A stretch of DNA of 35,324 nt from a virus. The DNA lies in the IMG/VR virus record IMGVR_UViG_3300030385_001778, positions 1 to 35,324 of that record. One strand, given 5' to 3'. Positions within the stretch are counted from its first letter, which is position 1. Each line of letters begins with the position of its first letter. Position numbers and translations under genes: made by a program. Below are positions 1 through 23,864 of this stretch, piece after piece. The notes beneath the pieces were generated by a model. That model saw nothing but the letters and a program-made list of their open reading frames with translations. It ran no database searches and was not told the origin of the DNA.

Positions 1-589
1 CCGTGTCCTTAACGTCTTGTAAAGCATCATGGGCATTTTCTTTGCTTATTCCAAACAAATCACGCATAGAGTCCATGCTTAAAGACTTAACATCGGCGTT
101 GTTTTCCATCCACATCCAAACATTGTCCATTACATCAATTCTGTGAATTTTATTGAACAAAGTTTGTTTTCCGGTTTTTTTGTCGATAGGGCCATATAGC
201 CCACACATGCGCTGAACAATGGGGAGGTCAAAACCAACAATGTTATATCCAGCAGCTACTGGGGCGTAATAAGGAGTGCCTTTAAAGTTATACCTATTGA
301 CGAAATTGGTAAACTTTTTCCAAACCGTTCTGGCAGCGGGAGCTTTGGATAGCTCTTTTCTTGTTTTGCCGTTCACGGCGAGGGCTTCATCCTCTATTGG
401 GTCTAATCCTTTTTCGATGGCTTTTTCGTCGTCTAATATGGGACGAATTAAACTTTCAAAGTATCCCTCTGGCTGAACGGTTAGCTTTCTTCCATGTATA
501 GCTACAGCGGCGATTTGAACCGGCTGTGTCTTGTCTGGATTGCGGGAGCCGGTTTCAAAATCGAATACAATTATGTCTCTATAGTTCAT
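1..589 (-). CDS. DnaQ-like 3'-5' exonuclease, C-terminus cut by window edge
   Basis: A DEDD-family 3'-5' exonuclease, probably the proofreading partner of the phage polymerase encoded just upstream. Translating the minus strand from the ATG at 587-589 gives 196 residues before the window ends. ExoI is VFDFETG with Asp10 and Glu12. ExoII is the NIVGFD stretch near the middle. ExoIII is HDALQD followed by VKDT at the very end, so all catalytic residues fall inside the window and only a C-terminal tail is missing. The start overlaps the upstream stop in an ATGA junction, so it is translationally coupled to the small gene at 586-810. DEDD exonucleases also act in RNA processing or as stand-alone DNases. 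The position beside a DnaE-type polymerase makes proofreading the best guess. Confidence 0.85.
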   Translation of the reverse strand, partial: MNYRDIIVFDFETGSRNPDKTQPVQIAAVAIHGRKLTVQPEGYFESLIRPILDDEKAIEKGLDPIEDEALAVNGKTRKELSKAPAARTVWKKFTNFVNRYNFKGTPYYAPVAAGYNIVGFDLPIVQRMCGLYGPIDKKTGKQTLFNKIHRIDVMDNVWMWMENNADVKSLSMDSMRDLFGISKENAHDALQDVKDT

Positions 590-810
590 CTAATTTTCCT
601 TCTTATTTCAAAAAATTTATCTAGTGCCTCGTCAACGTCTTCATACAATTGACTAAAAAAATATGAATGCACTTGGTATCTAATTTTTCCGCTCATTAAC
701 GGATAAAAATCATTTATTCTACAAATAGAAAGACCCTTATACTCCGTATGCCTTCCATTTTCGATTCCGCTCTTGATGCTTTGCCGGTAGCTTTTGTTCT
801 GTTTAAACAT
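586..810 (-). CDS. Small basic protein of unknown function
   Basis: A 74-residue protein I do not recognise. It is rich in Lys, Arg, Tyr and Phe, and ends in a probable amphipathic helix (DVDEALDKFFEIRRKIR). It has no cysteine cluster or membrane segment. I chose the ATG at 810 because the upstream-most start at 822 is a TTG. The ATG gives an 8-nt overlap with the polymerase stop, a junction type repeated elsewhere in this operon. It sits between a half-length polymerase gene and the exonuclease, so a role as a replication accessory factor is possible but not shown. It does not resemble the missing polymerase C-terminus, which should be several hundred residues long. Confidence 0.6.
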   Translation of the reverse strand: MFKQNKSYRQSIKSGIENGRHTEYKGLSICRINDFYPLMSGKIRYQVHSYFFSQLYEDVDEALDKFFEIRRKIR

Positions 811-2716
811 TTTCGCTTTCAAGTTGATCTCTTACGCCCATGATTTTATCCAGTAGTGAAATTCCAAGTATGTCAAATTTTACATGACCCATAGACTCAA
901 GGTCGTTCATTTCCATTCCTGCTATTTTTTCAGAACCCTTTTTGTCTCTAACCATTGGGCAGACCTCATCCAGCTTGTGGGAAGATATAACAACGCCCGC
1001 CGCGTGTTTGCCCTGAGATTTAAAAGTTCCCTCTATTCTCATTGCTTGGGCAAAGAGCTTAGAATAATCACCTTCTAATTGGCCCTTGTCATCTAATCTA
1101 CAATAGTCCCTTAGCGTTTCTGGTTGATTCATCAGAGTCCATTTGATTACCGATGGATTGTCCATCTCTGCTAATTGGTCAGAAACTTCATGTTCGTGAG
1201 GCAGACTTTTTGTGATTGTATTCATTTCGTCAAAACCGCAAGCCTCATTCATGCGTAAAACCTCTTTGAGGGCGCTGCGCCCTTGCAGTCTCCCAAACGT
1301 AACCATTTGGCCGACTCTTTCTGAGCCATATTTATTTCTTATGTAATCTATGGTATCGTCGCGTTTTGAAGCCGGTACGTCAATATCAATATCAGGAAGA
1401 GAAATATGATCGTCAGTATTACGGCCAGCATTATAAAATCTTTCAAAAATTAGGCCATATTCAATTGGGTCTACTTGGGTGATTCCTACTAAGTATGAAA
1501 TTAGGCATCCAGCGGCAGAACCTCTTCCCGGCCCCGGAATATAATTCTTTTTATGAACACTGTTAACTATGTCTCTAACAATGAGAAAATACCCAGATAG
1601 GTTAGCTTGGCTTATAACATCAAGCTCTTTTTTTACCCTCTCTGTATATAGCTCCTTCGTTTCTGTGGTGCTAACTTTTCCAGTTGGGGCAAGCCTGTTT
1701 GTCCAACCCTCTCTACAAAGATCGCGAAGATGATCTTCTTCTGATTGATTTTCAGGACAGGTAAATTGTGGAAGCATGGGGCGACCAAGAATGTCATAGT
1801 CTTCACACATTTCAGCAATTTGCATGGTGGTTGCAATTTCGTGTGGTTGATTAACAGCCTGTATTTCTTCAAGTGAGGGAATGTGAAAATTGTTTGATTT
1901 CATAAACCCACCGAAAGCTACGTCTTTGTTTTCTCGTAGCTTTTTCTTAATCCCGCGCAGGGTGGTTTTCATAGCGGAGCAGAGCAGTAGTAATTGATCG
2001 CTAGAGTCGTGTTTTTCTGGATAGTGAGAGTCTGCCGTGGCTACACTTTGAAAGTCATATTTCTTCGCTATGTACCTTAGCCCCTGCACAACTAAACTAG
2101 CGGCGGGAGAATTTTCTTGATCTATTGCTTGTATTTCAATAAAGAAATTTTCTTTGCCAAAAATGTCTCGATATTTATTTGCCAAAGACAAAACGTTTTC
2201 CACCCATTCTGGATGAATGTATCTTTTAGCTTCTTCTTCTGTTGGGGCGGCGTAGGCTGATTTTACATCAGCAAATATAGCATTGGCTAAGTCGCTTCCA
2301 AGATGGCCGCTAAAGGCAATCAAATCGCCACCTGCAAATTGACCAAGAGTATTCAAATCAAGACGAGGCTTGTAATAAAAGTTTTCTTCATCATTACTTT
2401 TTGAAACAGCTTGGATTAAGTTGTTCCAGCCGTTTTTGTTTTTAGCCAACACGCAAAGATGACTAAGCTTTCTGTTTTCTTCGTTCTTGATTGTGCAATC
2501 GGCTGGGCTTAGGTAGAACTCGCATCCAAGTATTGGCTTAATATTCTTGGAACGACAAGCCTGTGTGAAGGCCACAGCGCCCGATATAGTGCCGTGATCG
2601 GTCAGGGCGCAGGACTCAAAGCCCAGCCCTGAACAGCGTGAGGCGACCTGTGAGGGCTTCGAGAGGCCGTCTAAGAGGCTGTAGTGTGTATGCAGGTGTA
2701 ATGGTGTCCAATTCAT
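803..2716 (-). CDS. dnaE: DNA polymerase III alpha (DnaE-type), N-terminal half only
   Basis: The replicative C-family DNA polymerase, or its N-terminal part. The 637 residues start with a PHP domain: His7/His9/His11 in HLHTH, Asp40-His41, Glu66, His138, and Asp229-Ser-His231. Then comes the polymerase palm, with the PGPGRGSAAG loop at 394-403, the PDIDID carboxylates at 441-446, HAAGVV at 571-576 and VKFDILG at 612-618, whose Asp615 should be the third catalytic carboxylate. The protein stops about 20 residues after that motif. Bacterial DnaE is usually about 1,100-1,200 residues, so the fingers, clamp-binding and OB regions are absent. The next two genes downstream do not encode them. The start ATG overlaps the upstream nuclease stop (ATGA). 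The PHP ligands look intact, unlike the degraded E. coli PHP site. Confidence 0.92.
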   Translation of the reverse strand: MNWTPLHLHTHYSLLDGLSKPSQVASRCSGLGFESCALTDHGTISGAVAFTQACRSKNIKPILGCEFYLSPADCTIKNEENRKLSHLCVLAKNKNGWNNLIQAVSKSNDEENFYYKPRLDLNTLGQFAGGDLIAFSGHLGSDLANAIFADVKSAYAAPTEEEAKRYIHPEWVENVLSLANKYRDIFGKENFFIEIQAIDQENSPAASLVVQGLRYIAKKYDFQSVATADSHYPEKHDSSDQLLLLCSAMKTTLRGIKKKLRENKDVAFGGFMKSNNFHIPSLEEIQAVNQPHEIATTMQIAEMCEDYDILGRPMLPQFTCPENQSEEDHLRDLCREGWTNRLAPTGKVSTTETKELYTERVKKELDVISQANLSGYFLIVRDIVNSVHKKNYIPGPGRGSAAGCLISYLVGITQVDPIEYGLIFERFYNAGRNTDDHISLPDIDIDVPASKRDDTIDYIRNKYGSERVGQMVTFGRLQGRSALKEVLRMNEACGFDEMNTITKSLPHEHEVSDQLAEMDNPSVIKWTLMNQPETLRDYCRLDDKGQLEGDYSKLFAQAMRIEGTFKSQGKHAAGVVISSHKLDEVCPMVRDKKGSEKIAGMEMNDLESMGHVKFDILGISLLDKIMGVRDQLESENV

Positions 2717-3726
2717 TTTTTCTTATCCGCTAGTCTGCCACCACCATCGCCATAGGTGGTAATTTTATCAATATTTCCATACTCTTCAACGACTGTGTTT
2801 ATGCCCTTCTTGACAATTTCATCTCGTATATGCTGGCACAAACTTTTACCCGTGTCTTTGTAGGGTTCACTAAACTTACAAAGCTTTTGACACTTCCAGT
2901 GTTTGTTTTGGTTAGAAAGTAGTCGAGGATGTTGTATGTTTCTTATTTGTTCAAATTTTTTCTTAAGTATCTCTTCTGCCTTTTGATAATCATCTTCATC
3001 AAAGGCCATTGAAAACAATCCACCATCATTGATGTAATAGATGCTTATTGAAAACTCGAAGTCTGGATACATATTTTTCAAGGCATAATAATACAGAAGT
3101 AGTTGTGTGTCGCCTTGTAGCTTTTCGTGTGTTTTCTCTTCTCCTGTTGCCCAGTTTATTCTCTTTCCGGTTTTGTAATCTATTATCTCGTAGTACCCAT
3201 CCGAATGTTCTACTATGAGATCAACGGTTCCTTTGATTGCCAAATAGCCTTCAATCGTTTTCCCGCCAAGTTCATAAGAATATTTCGCCCAAGGCTTTTT
3301 GATTTCAAAATCAAAGAACAACTCGGTGGCAAAAACGTTTTGATTTCTAGGATCAAGCGCGCCATCATTATAAGCTATTGCTTTGTCTGCCCATTTTTTG
3401 CAGGTTTTGCGGTCGGACTCTGTAATGTTTACTTCTGGAAAGGACGAGCTATAGTAATCAAATGCTAAATCATTAATGAATTCAATGTTGTCACATTCTT
3501 CAAGAGATATCTTCTTTTTTGTTTCGTCGTCTTCTACAAAGTCTAAGCCCTTTTCCATAGCGATCTTTTTATCGCCAAGCGTTTGCATTACTTTGTGAGT
3601 AATTGTACCCATCAAAGCTTTTTTATTAGTCTTGTCTTTAAAAGACAGATTGTATTGTAGGAAAAATTTTTGTTCGCAGAAGTCTAGGGTTCCTATACTA
3701 CTGCTTCTATGGTAACAAATTATCAT
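2713..3726 (-). CDS. Cas4/RecB-like PD-(D/E)XK nuclease with probable Fe-S cluster
   Basis: A 337-residue nuclease of the RecB/Cas4/AddB type, expected to cut or resect DNA ends during replication or recombination. Visible motifs are an N-terminal CEQKFF with Cys17, the metal-binding pair GTVDLI and EIIDYKTGK (Asp, then Asp-x-Lys), and a QLLLYYYAL helix matching the family's Q-x3-Y motif. Near the C-terminus are three more cysteines (CQKLC and a later Cys). Cys17 plus this C-terminal trio is the layout of the four-cysteine iron-sulfur cluster of Cas4 and AddB. There is no CRISPR array or other cas gene here, so a replication or recombination role is more likely than spacer capture. It is coupled to the polymerase by an ATGA overlap. 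Confidence 0.85.
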   Translation of the reverse strand: MIICYHRSSSIGTLDFCEQKFFLQYNLSFKDKTNKKALMGTITHKVMQTLGDKKIAMEKGLDFVEDDETKKKISLEECDNIEFINDLAFDYYSSSFPEVNITESDRKTCKKWADKAIAYNDGALDPRNQNVFATELFFDFEIKKPWAKYSYELGGKTIEGYLAIKGTVDLIVEHSDGYYEIIDYKTGKRINWATGEEKTHEKLQGDTQLLLYYYALKNMYPDFEFSISIYYINDGGLFSMAFDEDDYQKAEEILKKKFEQIRNIQHPRLLSNQNKHWKCQKLCKFSEPYKDTGKSLCQHIRDEIVKKGINTVVEEYGNIDKITTYGDGGGRLADKKK

Positions 3727-4270
3727 CTAGCGGTTCTATTTCCGATATGGGAAGGTTGTACATATCTACATGAGTTTTAAATCCATTTGTTATATCAACA
3801 TCTCCAGCTTGCCAAATCTTGGCTCTTGCAAAATAATCTTCAGGCTCTGCCTGCCCTAAAATCCAAATGTTTTTGATACCGCGATAGGCGCGTTTTCCGT
3901 TTTCCATCGCCATGTTTTCAAATTCAATACTTGCAAAAATATATAAATCAGGTCTTTGGTGTCTACTGGTCTTTGCAACCGACACATCGTAATAATCTAG
4001 AGGTGGAACTGTTCTTCTTTTGGTTTTTACTTCTATTCGTCTTTTGTTCTTCCAGATATCGTAATTGTATTTATCGTCGCCGTCGTTGCAGCTAATAATT
4101 TCTGCATTAATGTATGACGCAACGGCTTCTTCTCCCAAATACCCCGCAAGATTTCCACCCCCTTGGAGAATCGAATTTCTTATCGCCCCCAGTTTCTTGG
4201 CCTTCTTTCTGGCGCGATCTATCATTAAAGCATCCCAAGGGACGTTTATGATCCTTTTGTTTGCAACCAT
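3707..4270 (-). CDS. Putative PD-(D/E)XK endonuclease
   Basis: A 187-residue protein with a restriction-endonuclease-like core. An early Glu lies in GYLGEEAV, then come YDIW and RIEVKTKRR, fitting the E, D and E-x-K metal site of the PD-(D/E)XK superfamily. The N-terminus is basic and could bind DNA. The specific family is not clear to me; Holliday junction resolvase and phage restriction-like nuclease are both possible. I use the ATG at 4270 because the longer start at 4276 is a TTG and AAGGGG is well placed for the ATG. It overlaps the dNMP kinase gene by 25 nt and the Cas4-like gene by 20 nt. The surrounding genes suggest work on replicating phage DNA. Confidence 0.6.
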   Translation of the reverse strand: MVANKRIINVPWDALMIDRARKKAKKLGAIRNSILQGGGNLAGYLGEEAVASYINAEIISCNDGDDKYNYDIWKNKRRIEVKTKRRTVPPLDYYDVSVAKTSRHQRPDLYIFASIEFENMAMENGKRAYRGIKNIWILGQAEPEDYFARAKIWQAGDVDITNGFKTHVDMYNLPISEIEPLDDNLLP

Positions 4271-5007
4271 CCCCAACCCCTTAACACCTCCATTAAAGCC
4301 CTGTTGGTTTCGTCTAAGCTAGAGTTTGCGTTGTCTAGCACATGATCAAATCCTTCATAATCATCTAGCGCCGTTTCGCTTTCGTGTTGATCGTCATGTG
4401 GAGATCTAGTTAATCGAATAACTTTACCCCCAGCCTGCTTAATGGCGTCTGCCTCGTTTGGGAAGCGAACGTCTGGAACAATTGCAAGCTCGGTTCCGCT
4501 TTCTAGCATCCTGTTAATACAACTCTCAACCCAAATGTTAGGTTTGATTTTCCTGCAAATATCAGTTCCAAAATATTGCAAGAATTCTCTAGCAGTTAAA
4601 TTTCCCTTTTTCATCCCCGCGCGGGGCAGGTCTTCCCACTTAATATCTACAGGCGTGTTCTTTTCCTCGTCTGTTCCATAGCACTGCTCTTCAGTTAACC
4701 CAAACAACTGTATTGAAATGATTTTAAGAGGGTCTGCAAAACTAAAAGCTCTTGCGTAGGGCCAAATTGACCTACTTGCATACTCAACAAAGTCTACGTC
4801 TTTTCTTTCGATATCTAAAAACCCAAGACCTTCGACCTCTTTTCCATTTTCATCAATTTGAATCGCATTTACTATAAGGTTGCCTTCTTCGTCCATGAGA
4901 AATTTCTCAACTACGTCGTGTAGCCTGAGTTGGTATCCATGTAAAAATTTGCAGCAGGTGGTTTTTCCACTTTGCTTAACACCAGAAAATCCTAAAATAT
5001 TCGTCAT
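4246..5007 (-). CDS. Deoxynucleoside monophosphate kinase
   Basis: A 253-residue P-loop kinase of the phage dNMP kinase type, which phosphorylates dNMPs to dNDPs for DNA synthesis. The Walker A loop is GVKQSGKTT near residue 10. The DVRFPNEADAI stretch followed by GGKVIRLTR is characteristic of phage dNMP kinases. It also has a lid-like region rich in Asp/Glu and an HESE motif. It lies between the primase and a nuclease in the replication operon, and its start overlaps the primase stop by 1 nt (TAATG). It fits with the reductase, dUTPase and dCMP deaminase encoded further upstream in the same direction. Substrate preference cannot be read from sequence. Confidence 0.85.
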   Translation of the reverse strand: MTNILGFSGVKQSGKTTCCKFLHGYQLRLHDVVEKFLMDEEGNLIVNAIQIDENGKEVEGLGFLDIERKDVDFVEYASRSIWPYARAFSFADPLKIISIQLFGLTEEQCYGTDEEKNTPVDIKWEDLPRAGMKKGNLTAREFLQYFGTDICRKIKPNIWVESCINRMLESGTELAIVPDVRFPNEADAIKQAGGKVIRLTRSPHDDQHESETALDDYEGFDHVLDNANSSLDETNRALMEVLRGWGWLQTKGS

Positions 5008-6062
5008 TATATATGCTCCTTTAGTTGCGGCTTAATCTCTTGATTGATTTGTTCGACAGACATGTCGCCTACGTCTTTGGTGGAAAGTTCTATTTCAATA
5101 ATATTAAATGTTCTTTCGCACTTTTTGCGTATGGAATTTCTCGCCTTTTTCCCCGCTTCATCGTTGTCTGTTAGCAACACCAACGTAAAGGCTCCAGACG
5201 TTTCCAGAATTCTTATTTGCGTGTCTGTAAGACCAGACCCAAACATTCCAACCACGTTTTTTATGTCAGCCTCCCAAAGCCTCCAAACGTCGCCCTGTCC
5301 TTCGACTAGAATTGCTGTTCTTTTTTCACGAATTTTGTCTTGAGATAACCAATACCCGTAGAGCCAAGCTCCAGAGTAAAAATTTTTTGAATTGACCCAC
5401 TTTTTCCCCTTGTAGTTCTCATGCATGACTCTGCCCACGCATCCTACCATGCGCTCAAAATCATCATCATAGACGGGGGCAACTACTCTATTTCGCATTT
5501 GTTTAGTTGAATCCAAGCATACCCCAACATCAAATTCATCCAAAACTTCTTTTGAATATCCCCTCTCTATATAATACTTGGCCGGTCTTTTTAGGGAAGC
5601 CCTAACCTTGTATCGCTCAACACCATTGGCCTTATTTTTTTCTCGTCTTTGTAGGGCTTTTTCAAACTTAGAAAATGTACTAAAGTTCACATTTTTAGAC
5701 TCTTTGTTCAAATCTTCAAAATTAGTTTCAACTAGCTTCATGCAATATTCAACCGTTTGGTCAAACGTAACTTCTTTGTCTTCTATATCTGATATCAACA
5801 ATCTAATCAAGCCAACCGGTGTATTAACGTTGTCTTCTTCACACCCCTGTGTCCAGCATTTCCATAATCCAAAGTAGGGATGCTCTAAGTCTGTGTTCAT
5901 GGTAAAAGCGTTCGGGTTATCACCTTTGTGTATTGGGCAGGAACAAGAAATATAGTCTTCAAAGTCATTTATTTCAACACCAAACTGCCCAAGTATGGGT
6001 ATTATGTTTTGAGCAATTTTGTCTGACAGCTTCTTCAATTCTTTTGTTGTAAGTTTTTTCAA
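5007..6062 (-). CDS. dnaG: DnaG-type DNA primase
   Basis: Makes RNA primers at the phage fork. The 351-residue protein has a CHC2-type zinc finger (Cys40/Cys42, His45, Cys69, Cys74) and then a Toprim domain with Glu254 in ILVEGQGD and Asp299/Asp301 in LLTDNDEAG. It is shorter than bacterial DnaG (about 580-600 residues) and ends soon after Toprim, so it lacks the helicase-binding C-terminal domain. It would need another way to contact the helicase. The start is a TTG inside a TTGA overlap with the helicase stop. There is no later ATG before the zinc finger, and GGAGAAG sits at good spacing, so the rare start is well supported. Confidence 0.9.
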   Translation of the reverse strand: MKKLTTKELKKLSDKIAQNIIPILGQFGVEINDFEDYISCSCPIHKGDNPNAFTMNTDLEHPYFGLWKCWTQGCEEDNVNTPVGLIRLLISDIEDKEVTFDQTVEYCMKLVETNFEDLNKESKNVNFSTFSKFEKALQRREKNKANGVERYKVRASLKRPAKYYIERGYSKEVLDEFDVGVCLDSTKQMRNRVVAPVYDDDFERMVGCVGRVMHENYKGKKWVNSKNFYSGAWLYGYWLSQDKIREKRTAILVEGQGDVWRLWEADIKNVVGMFGSGLTDTQIRILETSGAFTLVLLTDNDEAGKKARNSIRKKCERTFNIIEIELSTKDVGDMSVEQINQEIKPQLKEHI

Positions 6063-7552
6063 AATGGCTTCTCCGGGTCTATTTCTTCTTCTAAAACAAA
6101 CCCCTCTTCACCACTGTTTACATTATTATCAAAGCCTTCTTTTTTCTTTTTGCCAGCCAAAATGTATTCGGATTTAGTGAAGCCTTCGTCTATGCGCCCG
6201 TACTCGCCCCTCATGCTCATATTAATGTAATCAAACTCATCGGCTAGCCCACCGCCATGACGAGCCACAATGGGTACTAACTTTCTGTTCCCACTTTCTC
6301 CGTTGTCCTCTGCCGTTTCTTCGTCTGATTTTCTCTTAAAAATAGTAAAGCTACTGCAAAGCCAAATCAAGCGATCAGAGCCGCTAACAACATCGGTCGA
6401 TTCTTTCGTAATTCCATCCCTGTTTAATTGAACAAAACTAAGACAGGGAACGTCATACTGAACAGCAAAGTTATGAAGTTGTGTAATCTGAAATCCTAAA
6501 ATTTGAAATTCTTTTAAACCGTCAGACATTTGGTCTGAATGCATGAGCTTTAAGTAGTCATAGACAATCATGCAGGGGTTGGTTCTTCCGTTTTCATCAA
6601 AGCCAACCTTTTTAACAATCCACCTTCGCATAATTGACAAGGTTTCTTCAAATGATTTTCCCGCAATAGTAATATAATCATATGGGATACTTTTGAGTTG
6701 TTCCGCTGCTTGTGTAACGCGCTCTTTTCCGCCTTTGGATTTAGAAAAGCCGCCAGTGGCAATTTCATTAATCTCAATGTCACTCAAGTTTGCCAAGAGG
6801 CGATTGACGTGATCTTCCTTAGACATTTCTGTGTCGAGCATGAGAACTGGTATTTTGAGCTTGCCAGCAATGTGCAAGGCTACATTATCAGCAAACATGC
6901 TTTTACCAATCTTGGGTCTAGCGGCAATAAGGTCTACGCACTTCCTTCTAAATCCACCCCCAATTGATTTATCAAACCTTGGAAAACCACTGCTTATACC
7001 AAGCATCTCTGATGGATTTTCTATTAAGTGGTTTATATATTCTTCTATGTCCTCGCTAATGATTACTGGTCTGTCTTCAATTTTGTTGTTTAGCGAAGAA
7101 GACAACTCAAAAAACGGTTTTTCTCCAATGCTAATAATTTGATCAACGGTTTCGTCTCCGGTGACATCTATGATGCTGGCTATAACGCGCTTTGCTGTTA
7201 GCCGAACGTCTCTGGCTATTTCTAGTTTCTTAAGCTTAATCGCATGGTTTCTTACATTGCCAATAGCAATGTCTAGATTCATTATCGACCTAACGTGTTC
7301 AGGCGATATTCTATTTTCAAACGCTGCATCTAGACCGATATCTTTTGCCGCGCTTAGTATTGATGGAAAATCTACTTCATTGTTAGTTTCAAATATTTTT
7401 GTTAGACATGCATATAATATTTGATTTTCTTCAAGCGTAAATACACTCACGCTTATGATGTCATCAACATCAATGAAAGCCTCCGATCCATGCTTTACCA
7501 AACCGGCTATGACGGCACGTTCAGAGGCTGTGTTTCCGATCTGCTCTGTCAT
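6059..7552 (-). CDS. dnaB: DnaB-like replicative helicase
   Basis: A hexameric fork helicase, 497 residues, close to the usual DnaB length. An N-terminal helical domain (about 1-150) precedes the RecA-like motor, with Walker A ARPKIGKS at 211-218, a conserved LDTEMS segment after it, and a Walker B-like MIVYDYLKLM. The C-terminus is acidic and may bind a partner. I place the start at the ATG 7550-7552, which makes a TAATG junction with the upstream stop. A longer reading to 7564 adds only four residues and has no advantage. The gene feeds directly into the primase gene. No separate helicase loader is recognisable, though one of the nearby unknown genes could be it. Confidence 0.93.
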   Translation of the reverse strand: MTEQIGNTASERAVIAGLVKHGSEAFIDVDDIISVSVFTLEENQILYACLTKIFETNNEVDFPSILSAAKDIGLDAAFENRISPEHVRSIMNLDIAIGNVRNHAIKLKKLEIARDVRLTAKRVIASIIDVTGDETVDQIISIGEKPFFELSSSLNNKIEDRPVIISEDIEEYINHLIENPSEMLGISSGFPRFDKSIGGGFRRKCVDLIAARPKIGKSMFADNVALHIAGKLKIPVLMLDTEMSKEDHVNRLLANLSDIEINEIATGGFSKSKGGKERVTQAAEQLKSIPYDYITIAGKSFEETLSIMRRWIVKKVGFDENGRTNPCMIVYDYLKLMHSDQMSDGLKEFQILGFQITQLHNFAVQYDVPCLSFVQLNRDGITKESTDVVSGSDRLIWLCSSFTIFKRKSDEETAEDNGESGNRKLVPIVARHGGGLADEFDYINMSMRGEYGRIDEGFTKSEYILAGKKKKEGFDNNVNSGEEGFVLEEEIDPEKPF

Positions 7553-8010
7553 TAGCCAACACACTTACCGCAGCGATGAAATTGTCCAGCTTTGTATTTA
7601 ATATTGATTTCTTCCTTCGCTCCGCAAATATGACAGGTCACTTCAGTTAGACTTACTGGAGGTCGCCTTTGCGTTAAAGGAACGCTTGGTGTTTTCAGTT
7701 CTGGATCTTCTGAAACCAACGCCTCCGTACCATCGTCAACAAATTGATTTTTTTTAGCCCTGACTGGCTCACGCTGGCCGTGGTCAGAGTCTTCTCCTTC
7801 TTTTGACCCTGTCGAAAAATCTAAATCTTTCGACCGCACTTGCGCTGATGGCCGCACGGCTTCTTCTGTGCTTGGTTCTTCTGGCTTTTCTCCTTCTTCT
7901 TCTCCTTCTCTTGGTTCAATTTTTTCTCCTGTGAGCAGCCCGAAGCCTTTGATGATTTGCTGCATGTCATTTTCAATAATACCTTTTCTAATTTTATCTA
8001 TAGGACTCAT
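7552..8010 (-). CDS. Acidic protein with C-terminal zinc ribbon
   Basis: An unrecognised 152-residue protein. The middle (about 30-110) is low-complexity, dominated by Glu, Pro, Ser and Asp, and is probably disordered. The last 27 residues form a neat zinc ribbon: CHIC, a 14-residue gap rich in Lys and Ile, then CGKC near the end. It is directly upstream of the helicase gene in a TAATG junction and overlaps the preceding gene by 17 nt. A disordered linker with a zinc ribbon suggests a small adaptor that binds nucleic acid or a replisome protein, but nothing in the sequence fixes the role. Single-stranded DNA-binding or helicase-loading functions are open possibilities. Confidence 0.7.
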   Translation of the reverse strand: MSPIDKIRKGIIENDMQQIIKGFGLLTGEKIEPREGEEEGEKPEEPSTEEAVRPSAQVRSKDLDFSTGSKEGEDSDHGQREPVRAKKNQFVDDGTEALVSEDPELKTPSVPLTQRRPPVSLTEVTCHICGAKEEINIKYKAGQFHRCGKCVG

Positions 8011-8485
8011 GTTTCTTTCTCCTGCTAAGTTCTAATAACGTGTCGGCCTGTCTTCTAATGTCTCGTATGGTGTCAGATAGTAAAGTGGTTCGGCCTTCTG
8101 CGACCCTCTTTGTTCTCCAAACCTTTTGAATAAAATCATCCCCTCTTATTACCGCAGCTACTTTAACTTCCCATTTTGTATACTTGTCAAAATTATTAGC
8201 CTGTTTTGCCACGGCGTGATTAATGAATTCTTCGCACCATCTTGTACGAACTAAATGGGTGTTGTATATTTTTTGTAAAAAATTACAGTAGCCCTGCAAG
8301 CAAAAAGCCTTTTCACAGCACTCTTCTCCGGTTAAAGATTTCAATTCAAATCCAGTAAGGTTAATTATGTTTTCAATCTCTGGATTAAGTTTTGCGCTTA
8401 TAACGCCTTCACTAGAGACATAGTCTTCTAGATCTTGGATGAACTTATCCAATTGTTCGATTGATAATTCGTTCTCTCCATTCAT
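7994..8485 (-). CDS. Unknown alpha-helical phage protein
   Basis: A 163-residue, mostly helical protein I do not recognise. It contains several cysteines (EECCEKAFCLQGYC) spaced unlike a standard zinc finger, and a basic C-terminus (ELSRRKKHESYR). The start ATG at 8485 gives a 41-nt overlap with the upstream nuclease, longer than usual here, but no later start codon with a ribosome site is visible. Its location between a nuclease and the zinc-ribbon/helicase pair places it in the replication module. A helicase loader or recombination mediator would fit such a position; this is a guess from context only. Confidence 0.6.
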   Translation of the reverse strand: MNGENELSIEQLDKFIQDLEDYVSSEGVISAKLNPEIENIINLTGFELKSLTGEECCEKAFCLQGYCNFLQKIYNTHLVRTRWCEEFINHAVAKQANNFDKYTKWEVKVAAVIRGDDFIQKVWRTKRVAEGRTTLLSDTIRDIRRQADTLLELSRRKKHESYR

Positions 8486-8876
8486 CTTCTGTTTCCGAAT
8501 AGATTAATGTGATAAGGTCAATAGAATTTATTTCAAGCCAATTAATCTTGTCTCTGTCTCTGGCTTTAGATTTTCTAAATCCCCGCATGTCACTATGAAA
8601 ATGAGCGACAAACTCAAAGTGTTGTCGCCCATGAACCTCAACCGCCAAAGAACTTGACGGTATCAAGAAATCAACAAACAAAGTAGATTTTCTTGATGGC
8701 TTGTGTGAACCGGGAAGCGGAACCTCCTCAAAGATTCTATCATACGGGAACTCTTTTCGCAAGATCTTTCTGGCAAGAATGTGGAGGCTGGAGCGTGGTC
8801 TGGTGTCGTCCCCCGAAACAACACATTTAGACAGGCTCCATTTTCGATCTCTACCGTCAAAGCCCGTTGCTCTCAA
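8445..8876 (-). CDS. Vsr/DUF559-like PD-(D/E)XK endonuclease
   Basis: A small 143-residue endonuclease-like protein. The core reads TLFVDFLIP, then LAVEVHGRQHFEF, then a run of charged residues (KARDRDKINWLE) and ITLIYSE. The Asp in the first strand and VEVxGxQH in the second match the Vsr/DUF559 branch of the PD-(D/E)XK fold, which includes nicking and very-short-patch-type enzymes and some homing endonucleases. The start is TTG at 8876 in a TTGA overlap with the recA stop, the same arrangement as the primase start, with AAGGAA upstream. It may resolve or nick recombination intermediates made by the neighbouring RecA. A homing role is less likely because nothing here looks interrupted. Confidence 0.65.
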   Translation of the reverse strand: MRATGFDGRDRKWSLSKCVVSGDDTRPRSSLHILARKILRKEFPYDRIFEEVPLPGSHKPSRKSTLFVDFLIPSSSLAVEVHGRQHFEFVAHFHSDMRGFRKSKARDRDKINWLEINSIDLITLIYSETEDEWRERIINRTIG

Positions 8877-9940
8877 AATAACATTTCCTTCAATAAGCCC
8901 TCAAGAGCGTCCCATAGTTTATTTTCGTCCAAAAATTCGCGCATCTTTTGTTGGCCTTGAAATTTAACAAACTTAGTGATCTTTTCTTTATCTTCAGGGT
9001 CGATATTGTTTTCCTTTAGAGGGGCAGAAATTAATTTTGGATTTTCCACAAGGAAATCACAGGTGTACCACGCCCCAGCCGCAGAAATCAAATCGAAGTC
9101 ATTAGCTTGGTCAAATAGCTCTTGCTTCTTGTCTATTCCTGAGCCATACCTAAGCCAGCCAATCGCCTCGCCTCCAACAAAGCCGCCGAGAGCAGAGGTA
9201 ACAACTTTCCAATGCATGGCCTGTCCTATCTGACGGCCTTCGTTCTTTTCTTTCCAAGCCTGAATCCATGCTATCTCAAGAATCGTATCTGCCTGATACC
9301 TCACCTTGACGCCGCCGTCTGCCACCTTCTTTTTTCCCATGCCTGCGGTGTTAGCTATAAAATGCGTAACCATAATGATGATTGCTTTTTGTTTTGGCAC
9401 AACGCTGCTCATTTTTTTGCAAAAGTTTGAGAGAATCTTAGGTACTCCCGGCCTATAGTCTCCCCGAACCTCTTCGTCTAAATCTTTTTGAGCTATAAGG
9501 CTAGAAATTGAATCAATAATCACAACACAATTGGGGTGTGACTTAACTAGCTTTTCTACCGCCCCAAGATATTGCTCTGCGCTTAGAGGTTCCTCTTCGG
9601 CTTGCACTACGGTTATTTTGTCTGCTTGCAGTCCTTCAACCCCTTCAAAGTTTTTTGTGCTTAAGCGGGCTTCTACGTTTATATAGAAAATCGGACGTTC
9701 GCCATATTCTTTCTTTTGACAAGTAGCCGCAAATTGCAAAGCCGTTGTGGTTTTTCCAGATTTAGGATCTCCAATCATTTGAATCCAAGTTCCCTCTCTA
9801 AAGCCACCACCAAGGGCATAATCCAAGGCTGGGCTTACAGGAATTACCTGCATGTCTTTTAGGTCTTCAAAAACCTGCGCTCCATTTACTAGTATGTTTC
9901 CATACTTTTTTGTAATGGCTTTTAATGTTGCGTCACTCAT
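8873..9940 (-). CDS. recA: RecA/UvsX-like recombinase
   Basis: A strand-exchange ATPase for recombination-dependent replication and repair. It has 355 residues, near the usual RecA length. Walker A is GDPKSGKT at 57-64. YINVEARL around residue 85 occupies the place of the RecA FIDAEHAL segment. Walker B is VVIIDSIS around 138-145. The putative DNA-binding loops are in the AQKDLDEEVRGDYRPG region and the AGMGKKKVADGG region. It differs enough from bacterial RecA to be phage lineage. It overlaps the upstream unknown gene by 8 nt and the nuclease downstream by 4 nt. The acidic-helical C-terminus fits RecA-type autoregulation. Confidence 0.9.
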   Translation of the reverse strand: MSDATLKAITKKYGNILVNGAQVFEDLKDMQVIPVSPALDYALGGGFREGTWIQMIGDPKSGKTTTALQFAATCQKKEYGERPIFYINVEARLSTKNFEGVEGLQADKITVVQAEEEPLSAEQYLGAVEKLVKSHPNCVVIIDSISSLIAQKDLDEEVRGDYRPGVPKILSNFCKKMSSVVPKQKAIIIMVTHFIANTAGMGKKKVADGGVKVRYQADTILEIAWIQAWKEKNEGRQIGQAMHWKVVTSALGGFVGGEAIGWLRYGSGIDKKQELFDQANDFDLISAAGAWYTCDFLVENPKLISAPLKENNIDPEDKEKITKFVKFQGQQKMREFLDENKLWDALEGLLKEMLF

Positions 9941-10358
9941 TGTCTAGCTTCCTTAATTCAGATATCTTGCTTTGTTTCCCATATGGTTTATTGGGAACAA
10001 GGCGGCTGCTATCTTTATATTCTATTTCTTTAATTGGTCTTTGGCCAAGCTTGTCTAATTCATTTTGTTCTTTTCTTATCAACTCGTCTAGAAATTTAAC
10101 CCTCAGAGAATAAACAGTTTTACCTCTATAAGAGTTTAAAGCATTGATGATGGCTTTTTCGTGATAATTTTTTAGAAGCTGGTAGGCTCTGGTGACTTGG
10201 CTCTGGAATTTCTTCTTCCATTTTTCTGTGTTCCACAGGGCATATGCTGGCCTACCAACGTTTTGCTTTTCCGCTTCTCTTAAGCAAACCATTTCAGCTA
10301 TATATTGAGCCGCATTACAAGGTTGTCCTGTGGTTTTGTGCTTGTAATTTTTGTTCAT
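9933..10358 (-). CDS. Unknown basic phage protein upstream of recA
   Basis: A 141-residue lysine-rich protein of unknown role. It carries a motif-like stretch (GRPAYALW, then WKKKFQSQV and AYQLLKNY) with regular aromatic and basic residues that suggests an ordered helical domain in the first two thirds. The tail is highly charged. AAGGAA lies upstream of the ATG at good spacing. It overlaps recA by 8 nt and the upstream gene by 44 nt. Its basic charge and place beside recA hint at a DNA-binding recombination accessory, but I see no recognised domain. Confidence 0.6.
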   Translation of the reverse strand: MNKNYKHKTTGQPCNAAQYIAEMVCLREAEKQNVGRPAYALWNTEKWKKKFQSQVTRAYQLLKNYHEKAIINALNSYRGKTVYSLRVKFLDELIRKEQNELDKLGQRPIKEIEYKDSSRLVPNKPYGKQSKISELRKLDNE

Positions 10359-10797
10359 TCAATATTCCTTTTTTGGCAATGATACATTCTGGAAGATCGT
10401 AGGGATCTCTTTCTTCAATTTCTTCTGGAACCAATTCAGGAAGCCTCCACTTCCTTACGGAGAGTTTCTCTCCTTCTAAAAACCCCAAGACAAAAGCATG
10501 CTGGGTCATGTCCCCAAACATTAAAGCCCCCGCGCTCTTGCAAAAGAAATAACCATCATAGTCAGATCCTATGTCTTCTATATGCGACCTGTTTCTTACT
10601 TTTATATTTGTGATGTATAAATTATTAACTTCACAATATTTTTTTAGCCTAACCCATGCGCTTGGCGGTTCTACATTTGGCCTACCATCATCTTGGTAGA
10701 TAGTTTCTCCGTTAGAAAGGGTAGCTATCCACATGGGGTTGTTATCCGCATACACATTAATGTATGTATCAAACTCTTTAGATAAAAAGATATTCAT
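10315..10797 (-). CDS. Unknown phage protein, 160 aa
   Basis: A 160-residue protein, mixed alpha/beta in composition, with no motif I can name. It begins with a strand-rich region (YINVYADNNPMWIATLSNGETIYQ, here only described as residues 12-35) and includes GYFFCKSAGALMFG around the middle, then an acidic segment (LVPEEIEERDPYD). The start ATG forms an ATGA overlap with the upstream gene, so it is translationally coupled. The 44-nt overlap at its 3' end is long. It belongs to the replication operon by position only. Confidence 0.55.
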   Translation of the reverse strand: MNIFLSKEFDTYINVYADNNPMWIATLSNGETIYQDDGRPNVEPPSAWVRLKKYCEVNNLYITNIKVRNRSHIEDIGSDYDGYFFCKSAGALMFGDMTQHAFVLGFLEGEKLSVRKWRLPELVPEEIEERDPYDLPECIIAKKGILNEQKLQAQNHRTTL

Positions 10798-11114
10798 TTT
10801 TTCTTAATTATATGAATGGCGTTCTTGTGTCTCTGAGTAATCTTAACTCTACTGGGTCTAGTTTGATCAGCAGCCTCTGACGCTGCGGGTGTCATAATTG
10901 TTACACCGCCGTCTTCTTTGTGACCCATTAGCTTGCCAACATTAGATTTTTCATCTTGAACTGTGTCTGTGTGACCAGCGTCCACCGTGCTGTGCTTTTT
11001 AACAAAAGACACGGGCCTGTTAAGGTCTTTTGCAAGATCCTCTACAGTCTTGTCTGAATTGTTTTCTATATAAAACTTTTCAACCTTAGTTATCTTTCCT
11101 GTATTTTTAGACAT
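10794..11114 (-). CDS. Small protein with a possible helix-turn-helix
   Basis: A 106-residue protein. Its N-terminal part (KVEKFYIENNS, then TVEDLAKDLNR and VSFVKKH) looks like a helix-turn-helix of the kind that lets a small regulator bind DNA or a polymerase. The middle is polar and probably flexible, and the C-terminus is basic (RVKITQRHKNAIHIIKKK). I choose the ATG at 11114: AAAGGAG is 8 nt upstream of it, but only 2 nt from the alternative ATG at 11120. This gives an 8-nt overlap with the gene before it. It could be a small transcription or replication switch protein. No target is evident. Confidence 0.6.
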   Translation of the reverse strand: MSKNTGKITKVEKFYIENNSDKTVEDLAKDLNRPVSFVKKHSTVDAGHTDTVQDEKSNVGKLMGHKEDGGVTIMTPAASEAADQTRPSRVKITQRHKNAIHIIKKK

Positions 11115-11427
11115 CGACATTGCTCCTTTCAGCCCAAGTAAGGCTGTTTCTTTGTTTGGTCTTTAGATAGTCTACATAAAAATCAAATGTCTCTTTTTTG
11201 ACCTTGGAAAATTTACCAAGTAACGCTTTTATTTTATTGGAATCCATGCCCTCTGGATCAAACAAGGAACCCCTCAAAACTTTCACGTAATATATTTCCT
11301 TGTCGTTTACTGTTGCGATATAGGCACAGGAAATCTCTACGTTTTCCGTAATGACGTTGGCGTCCTTGTCATAATAGGTATATTCTACCTTTTCATAGTC
11401 AATAAATTCAGAAATATCTTCAGGCAT
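11107..11427 (-). CDS. Unknown small phage protein, 106 aa
   Basis: A 106-residue protein I cannot assign. The first half is strand-rich (YEKVEYTYYDKDANVITENV region, residues 12-31) with conserved-looking aromatics, and the second half is helical (KIKALLGKFSKVKKETFDFY). The ATG at 11427 is preferred over the TTG at 11433 because GGAG lies at normal spacing and it gives the 8-nt overlap typical of this operon. Neighbours are a zinc-ribbon protein upstream and the possible helix-turn-helix protein downstream. Confidence 0.55.
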   Translation of the reverse strand: MPEDISEFIDYEKVEYTYYDKDANVITENVEISCAYIATVNDKEIYYVKVLRGSLFDPEGMDSNKIKALLGKFSKVKKETFDFYVDYLKTKQRNSLTWAERSNVDV

Positions 11428-11731
11428 CTTCAATCTCCATTATTAATCTAAATGAGTTTTCTTCTTCTTGTTCTTCCATTTCACCAAGCATCAACCCTTC
11501 TGGGGGAGCTTGAAAGTATTTACCGGAAAGTTCGACAATCCAACTTTCTCCATCGCAGAAAGGACATTCTACAACAAGCTTTTGTTTCTCTTCTGATTGT
11601 TGAACACGAACAAGCTGCAAAAGAGCCTTATCGCAGTCAGCACATTTTACCTCTACATCTTCTAAGTCTTCAACCTTGATTACAGCCTTCTTAGAATCTG
11701 CTTTTCCTTCAAAATCAAACTCGTCCATCAT
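11420..11731 (-). CDS. Zinc-ribbon protein, 103 aa
   Basis: A small acidic protein built around one zinc ribbon: CADC near residue 30 and CPFC near residue 58, separated by about 25 residues that should form the beta hairpin. The N-terminus and especially the C-terminus (GEMEEQEEENS) are strongly acidic. Zinc ribbons of this kind are common in transcription factors and in small phage regulators. The start overlaps the FmdB-like gene stop in an ATGA junction. It is one of three zinc-ribbon genes in this operon (with 7552-8010 and 11728-12087). What it binds is not visible. Confidence 0.7.
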   Translation of the reverse strand: MMDEFDFEGKADSKKAVIKVEDLEDVEVKCADCDKALLQLVRVQQSEEKQKLVVECPFCDGESWIVELSGKYFQAPPEGLMLGEMEEQEEENSFRLIMEIEDA

Positions 11732-12087
11732 TTTTTTCCTTTGCGTATATAATTTGCCTTTTGAGTTTTTGTCATTTTGCTAATCTCTGACTTGGTTGCG
11801 TCTCCAGATTCTTCTACCCAGTTCTTTGTGATGCCAAGCTGGTTACCCTTTTTTTGCCAGTCTCTTTTATCATCTAATTCATATTTTCCCATTTTTGCAG
11901 TATTGCGTTCTGAAAGCTGACCCAAGGTAGTTGGCTCCCCCTTCACAAAAATTGTAGGCGGGTTGATTACCTGATACAAAGAATACTTTCCGCAATCTGG
12001 ACATTTCTTTTTATGTGGATCACCAAAGGCTTTTACTATTTCAAAATTATGATCACATTTTTTGCATTGGTATTCGTAAGTTGGCAT
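11728..12087 (-). CDS. FmdB-like zinc-ribbon protein
   Basis: A 119-residue protein whose start (MPTYEYQCKKC) is the hallmark of the FmdB/CxxC-CxxC small zinc-ribbon family: CKKC at 8-11 and CPDC about 18 residues later. In bacteria the family is annotated as putative regulators with little experimental support. Phages often carry a version near PhoH or a terminase. The C-terminal two thirds are basic and polar and may be unstructured, ending in a Lys-rich tail (NYIRKGKK). It sits 4 nt after phoH and overlaps the next gene by 4 nt. Function unknown beyond probable zinc binding. Confidence 0.75.
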   Translation of the reverse strand: MPTYEYQCKKCDHNFEIVKAFGDPHKKKCPDCGKYSLYQVINPPTIFVKGEPTTLGQLSERNTAKMGKYELDDKRDWQKKGNQLGITKNWVEESGDATKSEISKMTKTQKANYIRKGKK

Positions 12088-19987: not shown

Positions 19988-20305
19988 TTAAAAGAAACTC
20001 TTTACCTTATCTACTATCCCACCAAGACCACCAAAGCCACCGCTTGATATCACAAAGTAAGCTACTAGTGCAATACCTATTAAGAATACCAACCACTTAC
20101 GCTTGGTTGCTACTGCATAAGCTTTAGCTGTAAGCTCTTTGATCTTTTCTATCTTATAACTTCTTTTGTTTGCTTTTTTGTCTTCCGTTTTTTCTTTTCT
20201 GTACTCTTTCTCAGCCAGTCGTTCCTGCGCTTGTTGTTCGCGGGACTTCTTTTCTTTTTCTATGTTTCTTTCTTCTAGCGTGTCTTGTAATCTATTTTTA
20301 GCCAT
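19988..20305 (-). CDS. Coiled-coil protein with C-terminal membrane segment
   Basis: A 105-residue protein. Residues 1-65 are extremely charged (Glu/Lys/Arg/Gln) and should form a long coiled coil. A single hydrophobic segment follows (WLVFLIGIALVAYFVIS), then a glycine-rich GGFGGLGG and a basic KVKSFF tail. It resembles the layout of phage lysis accessory or spanin-like proteins, but it lacks a signal peptide or lipobox, so membrane insertion would be C-terminal. It overlaps the M19 peptidase gene by 8 nt. Unassigned; could be a holin regulator or a virion injection protein. Confidence 0.6.
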   Translation of the reverse strand: MAKNRLQDTLEERNIEKEKKSREQQAQERLAEKEYRKEKTEDKKANKRSYKIEKIKELTAKAYAVATKRKWLVFLIGIALVAYFVISSGGFGGLGGIVDKVKSFF

Positions 20306-21551
20306 TTTTCTTCCATCCCTCCGTTAAGAAACGCATAGCGTTTCCTCCTAGTATACCTTTAAGAACATCTTCTGGATATTTGTCTGTATCTATCCCTGAT
20401 TTTAAGCAAGATAAGTATTTAGTCAATCTAGGTAATTCTGAAATATCTGTCATCTCATCTGGTGGATCAGTAAATCCGTCATAATCTGTTCCGATTCCTA
20501 TTATTTCATGACCACCTATATTTCTTATATGATCTATAGTTTGTTCAATATATTTCAAACCAAGGCCAGTATCAATAGGACTAATCCAATAATTCATAAA
20601 GATTATGCCAATCAAACCATTATGATCTGACAGCCACTTTATTTCCCAGTCTTCCAAATTGTAAGGATCTGGATTAACTCCAAAGGCACCAACATGGCTA
20701 GCGAAAACCCTAGATAAATCATTGCCTACAATGTCATAAACTTCCTGCCTTGCCTTTGGTGTGCAGTGACTTATATCTATAAGCATACCCATATCTTTCA
20801 TGGTTTGCACAACCTTTTTTCCAATGGACGTAAGACCCTTGTTCATGTCCCACTTTCCCAATGTCTTTTTCCACTTTAAATGCTTGCTTCCATATTCTGG
20901 ATAGGGAAATACTGGATGAACAACATGGTTTTCATAGAAGTGGGCCAAGGTTATATAGGCTACGCCCCTGTTGTAGAAATGCTCAAGGTTGATAAGAACT
21001 TCGTTTTCTAGCAGGGGAGCGAGGGCGGTGGCTTCCTCCACTTTTCTTTTACAAAGCTCCCCATGCAGGCTGTGTGCGCCTTCTATTGAATGAACGATAG
21101 AGATGTCTCCCCTTTCTATATTTGCTAACAATTCATTAACAGAAAGGGCCATTGATACAGGACGAGAGCCTTCGGAGAGGTCTTCGTTATAGGTTTTAAC
21201 TTGGTTTTCCATTTCATCAAGCATGGCGTTGGTGGCATCAAAATAGGTAGGATCAACTATTTTTTTACGAACACTAGAGAACCACCATAGGAGAAACTTT
21301 ATCAGCCTTATGTCGTCTATCCACCCTTGCTCAAGTATGTACGCCGTGGAAAACATTACATCTACACCACCCTCTTCTAGCTTGGGAAAGGTGATTCTTT
21401 CACTGAACGGCCAGAACCCATATTTAGCGAGGGTTGACAAGAACCTTGTCTTTTTCCCGCCTAAGTTTCTATGAAACATCATACTCTTCAAAGATGGATG
21501 AGTATGTAAATCGACTATAGTCGCGTCTTTGTGTGTTTCTTCCCAATTCAT
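20298..21551 (-). CDS. M19 (renal dipeptidase-like) peptidase
   Basis: A metal-dependent dipeptidase of the amidohydrolase fold. Bacterial M19 enzymes cleave dipeptides, often L-Xaa-D-Xaa, which can come from cell wall turnover. The 417 residues show the metal ligands: DLHTH at 14-18 (an HxH variant of the family HxD), Glu157 in SIEGAH, His262 in DISHCT, His286 in ASHVG and Asp356 in GTDYDG. There is no signal peptide or membrane segment, so it is cytoplasmic unless released by a holin. It is unusual in phage. It lies directly upstream of two small membrane proteins. Peptidoglycan-peptide digestion at lysis or nutrient salvage are the two main ideas. Confidence 0.85.
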   Translation of the reverse strand: MNWEETHKDATIVDLHTHPSLKSMMFHRNLGGKKTRFLSTLAKYGFWPFSERITFPKLEEGGVDVMFSTAYILEQGWIDDIRLIKFLLWWFSSVRKKIVDPTYFDATNAMLDEMENQVKTYNEDLSEGSRPVSMALSVNELLANIERGDISIVHSIEGAHSLHGELCKRKVEEATALAPLLENEVLINLEHFYNRGVAYITLAHFYENHVVHPVFPYPEYGSKHLKWKKTLGKWDMNKGLTSIGKKVVQTMKDMGMLIDISHCTPKARQEVYDIVGNDLSRVFASHVGAFGVNPDPYNLEDWEIKWLSDHNGLIGIIFMNYWISPIDTGLGLKYIEQTIDHIRNIGGHEIIGIGTDYDGFTDPPDEMTDISELPRLTKYLSCLKSGIDTDKYPEDVLKGILGGNAMRFLTEGWKKNG

Positions 21552-22861: not shown

Positions 22862-23839
22862 TTAACCGAGGAGTTCGCTGTAATCAACGTAGTTAGTCGT
22901 GAAACTAGCAAAGTTGAACAGGATCACCAGTTCGCCCGGAATAGCCCTAGTAGGATTGCCTTGATCAGCCGCAAACACAACTGTCGTACCACGACCAGTG
23001 ATACCAGCCTTGTCTGTACCATCACTCTGCTTCAGCAAGCCACTATAGAGATCGAAGACCTGAGTGGCCCACGTACCCTTACGGTGATACACAGTTGCAT
23101 GATGGAGATTACCAGAAGATCGACTAGTGTTATCTGAACCCGGCATTGCAAGAACGTTGTCAGTAGAAGCAATTCCACTAAGCAGCGTTGAAGTACCGCC
23201 TCTCATCAACCAACCGATGTTGGAAGTAGAGAGGGAGACGCTTCTGCCTTGAGGGTTATAAGCCAGAGTACCACCAGATCGTGCTAATTCAACACCTGCT
23301 TTACCAATACTTCCAGTCTTGAGAACAACCTTTGAGCCATATACTTCTCGACCTTTAGCCAAATCAAGATTACTCTTGATATTAGACTTGACATTGTATC
23401 CACCAGTAGTACCACCAGCGGCAACCGTGTGTCCATCAATGTCTTCTGCTCCACCACCGGCACCAAAATCCGTACTGGTGACATTAGTAATGTCTGAAGC
23501 AGGTGCAATAGAAGCCTTGTCCTTAAACCTATACGTCGCGTTCGCAATCAGAGTAAGGGTTAAGGTGCCAGAGCTATCAGCTACGGTAATGGAATTCGTA
23601 CCAAAACCAGCAGCATTGTCAATACAAAGCTTCAGGGCTGTTGCGGCAGCAGCAGCATCAGTGTTAATAAACTGAAGACTTCCTGCTGTCGTTGACCCCT
23701 TTGCTGTAAACGTTTTAGAAGTACCAGCAGCGTCGATGATTACAATAGTATCGTCAACAGCGCAGGCGCCTCCAAAAACAATAGTACCTGTGACGGTAGC
23801 ACCATCGTCGAGTGGCTGTGAATGTGAACTTAAAGTCAT
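22862..23839 (-). CDS. Putative virion structural protein, paralogue 2
   Basis: A 325-residue protein homologous to its neighbour at 23865-24848. The N-terminal third carries a domain familiar from phage structural proteins: VTGTIVFGG, DDTIVIIDAAG, SKTFTAKGS, then an Ala-rich helix (TDAAAAATALKLCIDNAAG) and a strand run. The rest is Gly/Ser/Thr-rich and ends with RAIPGELVILFNFASFT. There are no enzyme motifs and few charged clusters, consistent with a capsid-surface or tail protein present in many copies. AAAGG precedes the start. The late position before a strong terminator supports high expression. Exact virion role is unknown. Confidence 0.7.
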   Translation of the reverse strand: MTLSSHSQPLDDGATVTGTIVFGGACAVDDTIVIIDAAGTSKTFTAKGSTTAGSLQFINTDAAAAATALKLCIDNAAGFGTNSITVADSSGTLTLTLIANATYRFKDKASIAPASDITNVTSTDFGAGGGAEDIDGHTVAAGGTTGGYNVKSNIKSNLDLAKGREVYGSKVVLKTGSIGKAGVELARSGGTLAYNPQGRSVSLSTSNIGWLMRGGTSTLLSGIASTDNVLAMPGSDNTSRSSGNLHHATVYHRKGTWATQVFDLYSGLLKQSDGTDKAGITGRGTTVVFAADQGNPTRAIPGELVILFNFASFTTNYVDYSELLG

Positions 23840-23864
23840 AATTATTTACCTTTCATAAATAAGC

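Follow-up and report, generated by a model that had tools for sequence, protein, structure and literature searches.

A structure to explain: why does a virus carry a gene for the alpha subunit of DNA polymerase III (DnaE) that stops directly after the palm, and where, if anywhere, is the rest of the enzyme? We analysed this gene in a window that is the whole 35,324-base IMG/VR record IMGVR_UViG_3300030385_001778; because the window is the entire record, there is no sequence to its left from the virus's own genome. We found that the half-length DnaE gene is a real, conserved arrangement and not a broken gene.

A DnaE gene that ends after the palm

The features that bear on this question are as follows; the evidence for each is given in brackets.

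2..589, minus strand: gene for a DnaQ-like DEDDh exonuclease, open at the contig end (PF00929, RNase_T; PHROG 192)
586..810, minus strand: small ORF, 74 aa from its ATG, of no known family (Pfam, relatives)
803..810, minus strand: split point, an 8-nt overlap of the DnaE-N end (TAA, 805-803) with the small-ORF ATG (810-808) (sequence)
803..2716, minus strand: DnaE-N, the N-terminal half of DNA polymerase III alpha (PHP, palm, thumb), 637 aa (Pfam, PHROG, PDB, AF2/Foldseek)
872..874, minus strand: codon of the third catalytic aspartate, D615, in VKFDILG (sequence)
1385..1393, minus strand: codons of the catalytic D442-I-D444 in the PDIDID motif, residues 441-446 (sequence)
2129..2701, minus strand: PHP domain, residues 6-196 (Pfam)
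2713..3726, minus strand: PD-(D/E)XK nuclease gene, upstream of DnaE-N and in the same operon, with an ATGA overlap at the DnaE-N start (Pfam and sequence)
5007..7564, minus strand: primase (TOPRIM) and DnaB-type helicase genes, in a replication block shared with DnaE-N (as annotated here)

The first-pass annotation had described a 637-residue DnaE with a PHP domain and three catalytic carboxylates that stops about 20 residues past VKFDILG, and our searches bore this out. Pfam placed the PHP domain at residues 6-196 and DNA_pol3_alpha (PF07733) at residues 329-618 and found no finger domain in DnaE-N; the carboxylates are D442, D444 and D615, and the TAA stop at 803-805 lies 19 residues past KFDILG. 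DnaE-N spans positions 42-615 of the 1190 in PHROG 405, and in a PDB search it matched DnaE structures, with the alignment to E. coli alpha reaching residue 564. The AF2 model of this half alone had a pLDDT of 90.4 and matched DnaE in Foldseek with an E value of 1e-41. All nine PHP metal ligands are present in the window: H7, H9, D16, H41, E66, H86 and H138 lie inside the Pfam domain, and D229 and H231 just downstream of it.

The C-terminal part is absent from the window because the contig ends inside the exonuclease gene. As had also been proposed, the next genes do not supply it: the 74-aa small ORF, which is kept in nearer relatives only, had no Pfam match, and the gene after it encodes an RNase_T/DnaQ-type exonuclease that matched PHROG 192, 'DNA polymerase exonuclease subunit'. 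The small-ORF stop overlaps the exonuclease ATG in an ATGA, and the overlap at 803..810 is of a kind that may couple translation of DnaE-N and the small ORF. Further genes of the window encode a RecA-like recombinase, a dNMP kinase and a class II RNR.

Several other genes of the window are of separate interest. A DUF1501 protein (33257-34489) and a matrixin-like metalloprotease (32058-32711) have twin-arginine-like signals (RRNFMK, RRNFVH); they are unusual as phage cargo and possibly hint at the host. Two adjoining paralogues of approximately 325 aa each (22862-24848; MTLSxHxxxxDxxTVTGTIVF...) had no Pfam match and are probably structural. Genes for a membrane dipeptidase (M19) and a DeoC/LacD-like aldolase lie at 20298-21551 and 24931-25563.

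DnaE-C and the conservation of the split

A search of IMG/VR identified 65 relatives with 37-98% identity. In the 97% identical relative L002, the missing half, DnaE-C, is a separate gene directly past the exonuclease: the order is nuclease, DnaE-N (7430-9343), small ORF (9324-9560), exonuclease (9557-10240), DnaE-C (10221-11813; 530 residues) and SSB. The general order in relatives is DnaE-N, small ORF where present, DnaQ-like exonuclease, DnaE-C and SSB, the last of these read from the sequence. The partner is thus encoded outside the window and on its left-hand side, where the first-pass annotation had suggested looking first; assembly on a host alpha C-terminal half, which it had offered as the other option, becomes unnecessary, as the partner in L002 lies approximately 0.9 kb from the DnaE-N stop and is neither distant nor host-derived. 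We infer that the virus of the window has its own DnaE-C left of the contig end.

DnaE-C matched DNA_pol3_finger (PF17657, E value of 4e-48) and HHH_6 in Pfam, and its ORF begins a few residues ahead of the finger domain. It spans 625-1075 of the 1190 positions of PHROG 405, and its family profile covers E. coli alpha 584-900 together with the OB fold at 948-1057, a fold that is also seen as strands in the model and as a PF01336 match in L049. Given that DnaE-N aligns up to residue 564 of E. coli alpha, the two halves together correspond to approximately residues 5-1057, with the tau-binding tail missing. Inspection of the region between the helix-hairpin-helix and the OB fold revealed no canonical internal clamp-binding motif. 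The AF2 model of DnaE-C alone (pLDDT 88.2) matched DnaE structures with moderate Foldseek TM-scores (0.5-0.7) and large rmsd, values that are to be expected when the OB fold and fingers of a multi-domain chain can move. Catalytic residues are invariant or nearly so in both polymerase halves and in the exonuclease: D442, D444 and D615 occur in all of the 119 distinct N sequences among the loci listed, and the DEDDh site (D10, E12, D121, H187 and D192) is kept wherever the region is present in these loci. The finger residues conserved in DnaE-C include the stretch LRKAIGKKK.

We then quantified how fixed the split is. Each IMG/VR scan returned its best 80 loci, and clade counts are therefore lower bounds; profile searches were run over 381 loci with 279 distinct N sequences, and an N-profile score of at least 400 bits defined a clade member. 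Among the loci listed, those at or above this threshold comprised 182 that were split with the C half seen, 17 in which N ends with no C in view, 5 that were incomplete and none that were fused; those below it comprised 69 fused, 3 incomplete and 3 split loci. The order N-Exo-C was found in every locus with both halves among the 218 listed, none of them fused; in a few, N or C has additional interruptions. Of the loci listed, 118 distinct ones have the plain N-Exo-C arrangement. The nearest other phage DnaEs listed are nearly all single-gene, and in a tree of the joined sequences the split clade forms one group, with 100% support and a long branch leading to it. Host or prophage copies were sought in 84,980 species genomes of bacteria and archaea, and no close relative was found there. 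The best match among 50,697 phage records had 34% identity, so the clade is without a close cultured member in the phage collection searched. Three more distant phage DnaEs (L336, L359 and L368) likewise consist of two ORFs; in L359 the cut is at the palm/fingers boundary and the genes overlap directly, the exonuclease not lying between the halves. These distant cases suggest that such splits have arisen repeatedly.

The end point of the N half is equally constant. Among 117 distinct relatives listed, the distance from KFDxLG to the end of the N protein is 12-40 residues (median 19), and the stop codons used among the relatives listed are TAA (65), TGA (32) and TAG (21). The DnaE-N stop is therefore not a sequencing error. 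End points shared by more than 100 distinct loci, together with the varied stop codons, rule out a sequencing frameshift or truncation, including the 3' frameshift that the first-pass annotation had named among the things that would refute its reading; its view of a genuine split in an interdomain linker stands. One could still read DnaE-N as a pseudogene or remnant, produced by random truncation or misassembly in a virus replicated by the host replicase, as its half length and the lack of a detectable beta-clamp gene in 18 long contigs might suggest. We give this almost no probability: the end point holds down to approximately 45% identity, the catalytic residues are invariant, the C half is always kept where the contig is long enough among the loci listed, and for the clade as a whole the conservation of both halves refutes it.

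Splicing and frameshifting

A genuine split could nonetheless yield a mature enzyme of one chain, if the halves were joined by a split intein, a trans- or cis-intron or a programmed frameshift. According to work cited in PMC3919608, a split intein joins the two parts of cyanobacterial DnaE, and inteins do occur inside the N or C half of related loci (L060, L049 and L040). At the cut between DnaE-N and DnaE-C, however, merely 12-40 residues follow KFDxLG, the C ORF starts near the finger domain and Hint residues were found on neither side, which rules out a split intein at this position. An intron joining the halves is ruled out by the entire conserved exonuclease gene between them and by the lack of an Rfam intron in L002, L041, L061, L063 and L066. 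The DnaE-N stop is overlapped by a TTTAAAC that could have served a programmed -1 frameshift; its frame is wrong for N, however, and L002 has GTCTAAAC instead. Moreover, the C reading frame takes all three values relative to N among the loci listed, and the gaps range from -17 to 2,491 nt between N and the exonuclease and from -59 to 1,763 nt between the exonuclease and C; some hold unrelated genes, such as that for a TylF-like methyltransferase in L008. With stops, frames and gaps this variable and no intein residues at the cut, we conclude that neither splicing nor frameshifting joins the halves, and consider a one-chain mature enzyme extremely unlikely. The check for intein or intron signatures at the junction that had been advised at the outset thus came back negative.

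Inteins and endonuclease ORFs do interrupt the individual halves in some relatives. In L060 (9998-12762), and also in L065 and L218, DnaE-N is broken at GPGRG/SAAGC in a split-intein-like manner with a TnsA-like endonuclease ORF between the pieces; this looks like a natural split intein in a fractured-gene arrangement. In L049 (13515-16340), split-intein-like halves of approximately 90 and 38 aa break DnaE-C at FNK/SH, the N piece having Hint and Intein_splicing Pfam matches and a NUMOD3/DUF559 endonuclease ORF lying between the pieces. The position at which a split intein sits in cyanobacterial DnaE is presumably three to four residues away from this break. DnaE-C of L040 (12313-14664) and L053 (12500-14866) contains a cis-intein with an HNH domain directly after IIRPG. 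Finally, a LAGLIDADG endonuclease ORF breaks DnaE-N just upstream of PDIDID in L061 (7895-10746) and L066 (9277-12406), where Rfam matched no known intron family.

A probable two-chain replicase among divided polymerases

Each of 18 clade contigs of 56-161 kb encodes one DnaE-N and one DnaE-C; in L060 and L066 an additional interruption breaks the N half. Neither PolA nor PolB, nor a second or full-length Pol III, was found in these contigs, which are genome fragments; a full-length polymerase elsewhere, which the first-pass annotation had held could do the job instead, was thus not seen in them. A search with PF02767, limited to the bacterial type of beta clamp, had no match in the 18 contigs. 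The split pair is probably the replicase of the clade.

We propose that the virus very probably encodes its own obligate two-chain C-family replicative polymerase, DnaE-N plus DnaE-C, with a DnaQ-like proofreader. DnaE-N would supply the PHP domain, the thumb and a palm that holds the full set of three catalytic aspartates, and DnaE-C, encoded just left of the window past the exonuclease, would supply the fingers, the helix-hairpin-helix and the OB fold. The tightly packed operon would yield two separate translation products; most likely each folds on its own and the two dock non-covalently where palm and fingers meet, giving a single active site like that of an ordinary Pol III alpha; both this association and the polymerase activity are predictions from sequence. 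Proofreading is most likely the task of a further subunit, the DnaQ-like DEDDh exonuclease whose gene lies between the halves, a partnership to which the conserved gene order points. Taken together, the N and C halves have the three-aspartate Pol-beta-like palm, the fingers and helix-hairpin-helix, and the PHP and OB domains in DnaE order that mark the C family. They do not form a single polypeptide, being separate ORFs in every clade member listed with both halves; as split members of the C family exist, a single chain is usual for it and not required.

The PHP domain varies within the clade. All nine ligands (positions 7, 9, 16, 41, 66, 86, 138, 229 and 231) are present in 65 of 119 N sequences, which have a His where many DnaEs have Cys, and the site is degenerate in the other 54. 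Some of the latter, such as L063, also lack approximately 110 PHP residues. The exonuclease is intact everywhere and the palm aspartates are invariant despite this degeneration, which would fit proofreading that rests on the exonuclease. The same pattern bears on the possibility that DnaE-N acts alone or pairs with the C-half of host alpha, in the form of a hybrid polymerase or a PHP nuclease, while DnaE-C does something else. Complete PHP ligands in the window's subclade would suit a nuclease, but the ligands are lost in those 54 sequences while the palm aspartates never are, and the operon invariably encodes a cognate fingers protein of the phage's own, itself with conserved residues. Fingers are needed for nucleotide binding in C-family enzymes, which counts against DnaE-N working alone, and we regard this possibility as very unlikely. 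A bolder version of the two-chain replicase would make the cut functional instead of neutral, with the exonuclease as an extra, structural subunit keeping palm and fingers together in a three-chain core whose fingers are exchangeable or dissociable. We think this improbable; to our knowledge, no such family C replicase has been described.

Split phage Pol III alpha enzymes are already known, and the initial description of the locus as a novel replisome form was too strong in view of those reported (PMC7824862, PMC7302621) and of a two-piece T4-like polymerase (PMC2988022). Group 2.2 jumbo phages encode a minimal Pol III alpha as two proteins from distant genes, in addition to a PolB; one part binds NTP and the other Mg and template, and PHP and other Pol III domains are lacking (PMC7824862). 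Their enzyme resembles that of the clade in being a C-family polymerase made of two stand-alone phage proteins that are proposed to reconstitute it. The clade pair, by contrast, is near full length, includes PHP and OB domains and has all three aspartates on one chain; its halves adjoin with the exonuclease gene between them, and neither PolA nor PolB was found in the 18 contigs. In Microbacterium EF phages, Pol III alpha is encoded by two genes (PMC7302621). We found two DnaE genes in Poultress and RikSengupta (Microbacterium EF and relatives) and in the Mycobacterium phages Onyinye and Rope, which thus share with the clade a Pol III alpha in two adjoining phage genes. The annotated Microbacterium phages analysed here are cut between PHP and palm (bacterial reference residues ~287-292), whereas the clade is cut between palm and fingers (~566-579), and the annotation of the Microbacterium and Mycobacterium phages shows no exonuclease gene separating the two halves.

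The closest parallel in cut site is the cultured Rossellomorea phage phiT1 (L069, PV767480), in which the cut between gp20 and gp18 falls in this very palm/fingers linker and a small ORF separates the two genes. Both of its 'DNA polymerase III subunit alpha' entries (3989-7271) are halves of one split enzyme. phiT1 is approximately 30% identical to the clade and lacks the exonuclease between the halves, and a search of IMG/VR with its own peptides found no relatives. In the tree it lies beside unsplit phage DnaEs, apart from the clade; the tree thus favours two origins for the two splits, although a grouping of phiT1 with the clade, as a single origin would have it, is not rejected by the AU test (p 0.12). 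Two further two-gene entries that we considered appear to be of another kind and at other sites: that of Pseudomonas phage PA5 looks like a frameshift, and that of Bacillus phage KLEB27-3 like an HNH-interrupted gene.

Outside the phage Pol III enzymes, gp43A and gp43B of a T4-like Aeromonas phage form a two-piece polymerase that co-purifies and has activity (PMC2988022). This is likewise a replicative polymerase in two polypeptides, but it belongs to family B, and an untranslated spacer or a homing endonuclease gene lies between its genes. Cyanobacterial DnaE also has two genes, but a split intein makes it one chain, and its cut lies in the fingers, in the YCFNKSH motif.

The clade pair differs from the jumbo-phage, Microbacterium and T4-like enzymes in its cut site, in its domain content, in having the exonuclease gene between its halves and in its apparent role as sole replicase. 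The clade is large, its counts being at least those listed, and its long contigs show no replicase other than the split polymerase. To the few known divided replicases it contributes a cut at a domain boundary, and automatic annotation that sees one half will go on labelling DnaE-N a truncated polymerase. An active site built from two chains would be a natural experiment on which palm-fingers contacts are enough for function and, if it is so built, would offer biochemists ready split points.
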